From Hyphomonadaceae bacterium (GTDB taxonomy: Bacteria > Pseudomonadota > Alphaproteobacteria > Caulobacterales > Hyphomonadaceae), in NCBI GenBank assembly GCA_947478925.1, contig CANJXY010000002.1, positions 1-64,000 of the forward strand: 64,000 bases of DNA, read 5' to 3'. Below the pieces are notes generated by a model. It saw only the letters and a list, made by a program, of their open reading frames with translations. It did not search any database and was not told where the DNA came from. Every line of letters begins with the position of its first letter. The first letter of the stretch is position 1. Shown here piece after piece: positions 27,138 to 28,089 of this stretch. Position numbers and translations under genes: made by a program.

Positions 27138-27166
27138 GATATATCTCTTTTTTCGATATATCGAAA
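27138..27166 (+). promoter_or_regulatory. PadR operator candidate
   Basis: Two GATATATC octamers (27138-27145 and 27155-27162) lie 17 bases apart. The second sits inside a perfect 16-base palindrome TTTCGATATATCGAAA (27151-27166). The site ends 11 bases before the padR ATG, which fits autorepression by the PadR dimer. Confidence 0.7.
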
Positions 27167-27177
27167 TGGAGACAACG

Positions 27178-27765
27178 ATGCACGGTATCGGACGTCATGG
27201 AGGCCAGCACGGCAGGCATTTCGAGCGGTTTGCTCGCAAGATGCGTGGGCTGGAGGAAGGTCTGGGTCGCGGCCGGGACCGTCACATGGGCGGTGGCAGG
27301 CACATGCTGGGGCGGTTTTTTGCCCATGGGGACCTGCGGCTGGTGATCCTCAATATGATCGCCGAGAAGCCGCGTCACGGCTATGAGCTGATCAAGGAAA
27401 TCGAGGACTCGGTTGCCGGCGCCTACACGCCGAGCCCGGGCGTAATCTACCCTACCCTCACCCTGCTGGAAGAACTCGGCTATGTCGTCGCCGAAGCCGA
27501 TGGCGCCAAGAAGCTGTACGCGATCACAGACGAAGGCCGCGCCTTCCTGACCGCCAATCAGGCGACGGTCGACGCGCTGCGCGAGCGCATGGCGGAAGCC
27601 AGCCACACGCATGGCCGCGGACGCGCCGTCAGCATCATGCGGGCGATGGAAAATCTGAAGATGGCGCTGCGCCTGCGAGCGGCGAGCGGCAACCTCAATG
27701 AGGAAACGATCGAAGCCGCGGCTGCGATCATCGATGAAGCCGCGAAAAAAGTGGAGAGGCTGTGA
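27178..27765 (+). CDS. PadR-family transcriptional regulator
   Basis: A 195-residue regulator. After a His/Gly/Arg-rich N-terminus (HGIGRHGGQHGRHFERFARK) comes the PadR winged helix: DLRLVILNMIAEKPRHGYELIKEIED and PSPGVIYPTLTLLEELGYVVAEADGAKKLYAITDEG, then a C-terminal dimerisation helix set. I start at ATG 27178 because GGAG lies 6 bases upstream; ATG 27166 falls inside the operator palindrome. The stop overlaps a downstream ATG by one base (TGATG), suggesting coupling with the DUF2218 gene. The His-rich N-terminus might bind metal. Confidence 0.92.
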   Translation: MHGIGRHGGQHGRHFERFARKMRGLEEGLGRGRDRHMGGGRHMLGRFFAHGDLRLVILNMIAEKPRHGYELIKEIEDSVAGAYTPSPGVIYPTLTLLEELGYVVAEADGAKKLYAITDEGRAFLTANQATVDALRERMAEASHTHGRGRAVSIMRAMENLKMALRLRAASGNLNEETIEAAAAIIDEAAKKVERL

Positions 27766-27783
27766 TGGTCGCTAGGCAAACCC

Positions 27784-28089
27784 GTGCCATGGCCGCCATG
27801 CAATCGCACGCGCCTTGCGACTTCGCCTGACAAGGCGCGGACCTACATGATTCAGATGTGCAAGCACTTCGGACACACGGTCGAGGCGACGTTCGACGAT
27901 ACGCATGCTCGCATCGCGCTCGGCGAGCGTGTTTGCGAACTGGAAGTCAGCGCTCCGGATTTGTTGCGCATCAGCCTAACAGCGGACAGAGAGGCCAGTC
28001 TGCATGCTGTGGAAGAAGTCGTGGATCGACACCTGCGCCCGTTTGCGTTCAAGGAGGAGCTGACCATCCAGTGGGCGGAAAGCGCCTGA
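27784..28089 (+). CDS. DUF2218 domain protein, possibly frameshifted at its 5' end
   Basis: The frame encodes a DUF2218 domain (ARTYMIQMCKHFGHTVEATF, RIALGERVCELEVSAPDLLRISL, VEEVVDRHLRPFAFKEELTIQW). This frame can only start at a GTG (27784) without a good ribosome-binding site, or at an internal ATG (27847) that would cut into the domain. The coupled ATG at 27765, overlapping the padR stop, reads a different frame (…MAAMQSHAP…) and stops at 27828-27830. Adding two bases at CACGCGCC (27818 region) would join SHA to RLATSP, the usual DUF2218 start. DUF2218 genes are often next to padR. Function is unknown; metal-linked roles are only suspected. Confidence 0.75.
   Translation: MPWPPCNRTRLATSPDKARTYMIQMCKHFGHTVEATFDDTHARIALGERVCELEVSAPDLLRISLTADREASLHAVEEVVDRHLRPFAFKEELTIQWAESA

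Follow-up and report, generated by a model that had tools for sequence, protein, structure and literature searches.

The window analysed here is a 64,000-nucleotide stretch of Hyphomonadaceae DNA. In it, a padR-family regulator gene ends on a start codon that should lead into a DUF2218 gene, yet the reading frame opened by this codon stops before the domain is reached. The locus thus raises the question of what placed the coupled start out of the domain frame, and from which codon the domain would now be translated.

Reading frames at the locus

The padR gene (27166–27765, plus strand; PF03551, Pfam PadR E = 3.9e-19) ends in TGA at 27763–27765, and the A of this stop is also the first base of an ATG at 27765–27767, forming a TGATG overlap. 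From this putatively ancestral coupled start, the frame now gives a 21-codon dead-end ORF (27765–27830, plus strand), MVARQTRAMAAMQSHAPCDFA, which terminates at TGA 27828–27830. The DUF2218 domain is found in the frame of GTG 27784 (27784–28089, plus strand), which is padR's own frame and lies one on from that of ATG 27765; GTG 27784 is the sole start codon upstream of the domain in it. The translation of this frame belongs to PF09981 (E = 2.1e-23, 82.9 bits against a gathering cut-off of 29.1) and covers profile positions 7–87 of 88. The initial annotation had described the shared base, the stop at 27830 and a domain one frame on; its coordinates were correct on re-reading, and the PF09981 match agrees with the third point. 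We searched the same assembly for a second copy of the padR–DUF2218 locus and found none, so the locus is single. Within padR itself, the first 55 codons (27166–27330) are rich in His, Gly and Arg and score as non-coding by codon usage; the padR N-termini of congeners are similarly His-rich.

padR–DUF2218 pairs in relatives

Homologues were found by an alignment-based scan of genome contigs, a single-protein scan having given no matches. DUF2218 is present in 7 of the 15 genomes of the genus and in 51 of 398 of the order. DUF2218 genes adjacent to padR, often with a stop–start overlap, occur widely across Caulobacterales (about 49 loci; relatives L073–L179), and this conserved linkage suggests that DUF2218 may be a co-regulated partner. 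To our knowledge, DUF2218 has no established function. One member of the family lies in a lanthanophore cluster, and a role for this member in regulation or transport was suggested (PMC11317620). A literature search for papers naming both padR and DUF2218 as a pair returned none.

The window has the same gene order, strand and TGATG overlap as its congeners, whose named records are Hyphomonadaceae metagenome assemblies. Congeners L002, L003, L004 and L006 all start DUF2218 at an ATG that forms TGATG with the padR stop and opens the domain frame. In the survey of padR-linked loci (about 49, with a few genomes entered twice), the ATG was in the domain frame in all ten TGATG-coupled pairs other than the window, whereas the window alone has it out of frame. 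This supports the proposal that the coupled start lost its frame through an indel.

A split leader motif and an inverted repeat

The initial annotation had predicted a SHAR leader in homologues. When we checked, SHAR(V/L)xT was present at or just past the start in 12 Caulobacterales homologues, mostly as M(Q/E)SHAR, and congener leaders were looser, e.g., HSVARVAT. In the window this motif is split: MQSHA (27798–27812, plus strand), matching the (Q/E)SHA of relatives L163–L166 and L169–L177, is read in the ATG 27765 frame and directly abuts RLAT (RLATSPDKARTYM) in the domain frame. Because the two halves abut, and because the joined motif is the conserved start of 12 homologues, comparison of the sequences confirms the frame displacement as real and as more than chance would give.

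The difference is not confined to this join. Alignment of homologues showed that two codons, Ser-Pro (27822–27827, plus strand), are absent from them and stand in the window between the T of the motif and DKAR. The distance from the AxVxT-type motif to the [LIVMA]xKH[FW] anchor is 14 residues in 73 of 102 homologues and 16 in the window, and from the SHA codon to DK there are 16 nt in the window versus 12 in relatives, a net gain of 4 nt. The earlier proposal that the SHA/RL join lacks two bases was thus right about where the motif is broken but did not account for the extra Ser-Pro codons. We also tried to place a single 4-nt insertion by hand, and no placement keeps both R and T of ARxxT; with this excluded, the history must involve a minimum of two indels, or a single compound event, e.g., −2 and +6. 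Protein identity to the nearest homologue is only about 57%, and divergence of the leader DNA prevents its alignment, which leaves the path ambiguous.

Both differences are confined to about 20 nt and are covered by a perfect inverted repeat of 9 bp, CGCGCCTTG-13 nt-CAAGGCGCG (27809–27839, plus strand; arms 27809–27817 and 27831–27839). Of the 103 homologues compared over this region, the window has the longest repeat, the other 102 reaching at most 7 bp; among mononucleotide shuffles, 3 of 1000 reached 9 bp. The predicted RNA fold of 27798–27860 has an energy of −20.6 kcal/mol (z −2.18). The conserved KAR lies in the right arm, so the altered arm is the left one. Template switching at quasipalindromes during replication, established in E. 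coli, brings imperfect repeats closer to perfection and yields clustered indels (PMC7202029). The window shares this pattern: its indels are clustered at an inverted repeat that is perfect, and homologues have shorter ones. A replication error or template switch provoked by the hairpin is thus a plausible cause of the indel. The initial annotation had suggested a 2-base slippage in a GCGCGC run; an indel is indeed indicated, but plain slippage appears too simple, and since the Ser-Pro codons are inserted and the 9-bp inverted repeat is perfect, a hairpin or template switch fits as well or better.

Start signals and the DUF2218 body

To compare the two candidate starts, we calculated duplex energies for their Shine-Dalgarno regions. 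ATG 27765 is preceded by the Shine-Dalgarno-like GGAGAGGCT in the padR tail (27752–27760, plus strand) at −6.4 kcal/mol, against a null median of −3.2 and a best 5% of −7.9, while GTG 27784, at −3.0 kcal/mol against the same median, is no better than random. Expression of DUF2218 would therefore be expected to be lower, and also uncoupled from padR. Codons 27784–27816 resemble out-of-frame sequence (log-odds −0.28 per codon), which counts, like the weak Shine-Dalgarno of the GTG and the low codon-usage scores of the body, against a real indel with translation from the GTG; over the 16-codon leader, codon usage cannot choose between the three frames (−0.075, −0.183 and −0.150 per codon).

The body of the gene is without stops and keeps all 28 residues that are invariant in the genus alignment. 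Its dN/dS is about 0.22 against L002, a measure blind to very recent loss, and neither further lesions nor lost purifying selection was found. Its GC3 is 0.72, versus 0.81–0.89 in relatives. The codon usage of 27817–28086 is weak (percentile 2.3 among pieces of long genes from its own genome) and also scores low beside that of its homologues. Compared with the rest of PF09981, the window protein has its N-terminal motif broken by the frame change and the two extra codons, and the usual leader would become MPWPPCNRT if GTG 27784 is used. An AF2 model of the GTG-start protein has a mean pLDDT of 84, with strand 1 at residues 6–13, and its closest solved fold is 2jpi (Foldseek E = 1.3e-7, TM 0.75/0.78), the NMR structure of the DUF2218 protein PA4090 of Pseudomonas aeruginosa. 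A sequence-profile match to 2jpi (E = 3.2e-18) agrees with the shared family and fold. The modelling suggests that a protein begun at GTG 27784 could fold.

Origin of the frame break

Taken together, an ordinary local mutation is the most likely explanation of the DUF2218 start, an assembly error is less likely, and we found no sign of programmed recoding. We put at about an even chance the reading in which a real, one-off indel in this uncultured lineage moved the coupled ATG out of frame and GTG 27784 serves the intact domain. In this account, a small indel event near codon 17, at the hairpin-forming inverted repeat, would have displaced the ancestral start and left the domain frame whole. 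Translation would then begin 19 nt past the coupled ATG, at GTG 27784, so that the protein would open with MPWPPCNRT- rather than the usual leader, and the yield from this weak start would probably be lower. The frame break relative to homologues, the intact conserved domain and the inverted repeat are observed directly; that the organism truly carries the change, that it arose through the inverted repeat and that the GTG is in use are inferences from a single assembly.

The source is a draft assembly in 344 contigs, its named congeners are known from metagenome assemblies, the site is rich in GC and hairpins, and the leader appears non-coding in the domain frame, all of which would suit an error of sequencing or assembly, or an artefact of building a consensus from mixed strains, hiding a gene that is in frame in the organism. 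We regard this as rather unlikely. A codon-model frame-switch scan of 464 kb of the assembly, including 400 kb from other contigs, found 2 candidates, a rate of 0.43 per 100 kb; the two relatives used as controls had 0.25 and 0.31. Neither stood as a frameshift on reading, where both look like ordinary adjacent genes. With no convincing frameshift in 464 kb, at or below the control rates, the assembly is not frameshift-prone, although the scan is blind to 16-codon leader cases like this one and speaks to general assembly quality only. A random read error would also leave the adjacent Ser-Pro codons unexplained. An incipient pseudogene, which recently lost its start and no longer makes DUF2218 in useful amounts, seems less probable still. 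The stop-free body, its conserved residues and its dN/dS speak against it, the last with its blindness to very recent loss, while the best ribosome-binding site serves the dead-end ORF and the body has weak codon usage and low GC3. The gene is also dispensable, as many genomes are without it (8 of 15 in the genus, 347 of 398 in the order).

The strong Shine-Dalgarno of ATG 27765 and the stable hairpin could be read as parts of a programmed +1 (or −2) recoding site joining the coupled ATG to the domain frame, as the initial annotation had entertained. This idea gained no support and is highly improbable: the frame break is conserved in none of the ten TGATG-coupled relatives, which are all in frame and need no recoding, and a conserved slippery site could not be demonstrated. 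The hairpin holds the first neighbours of the frame-0 stop and does not occupy the position of a recoding spacer; a one-off lesion is the simpler account. Equally remote is a frame break fixed in the lineage, with DUF2218 made through recoding or a hairpin-controlled switch between ATG 27765 and GTG 27784 that would free its dosage from padR translation.

Significance

The finding has little import beyond annotation, where automated gene callers will pick GTG 27784 and so mask the lesion. If the indel is real and fixed, the locus would offer a natural example of how a gene can leave translational coupling by way of a hairpin-provoked indel.
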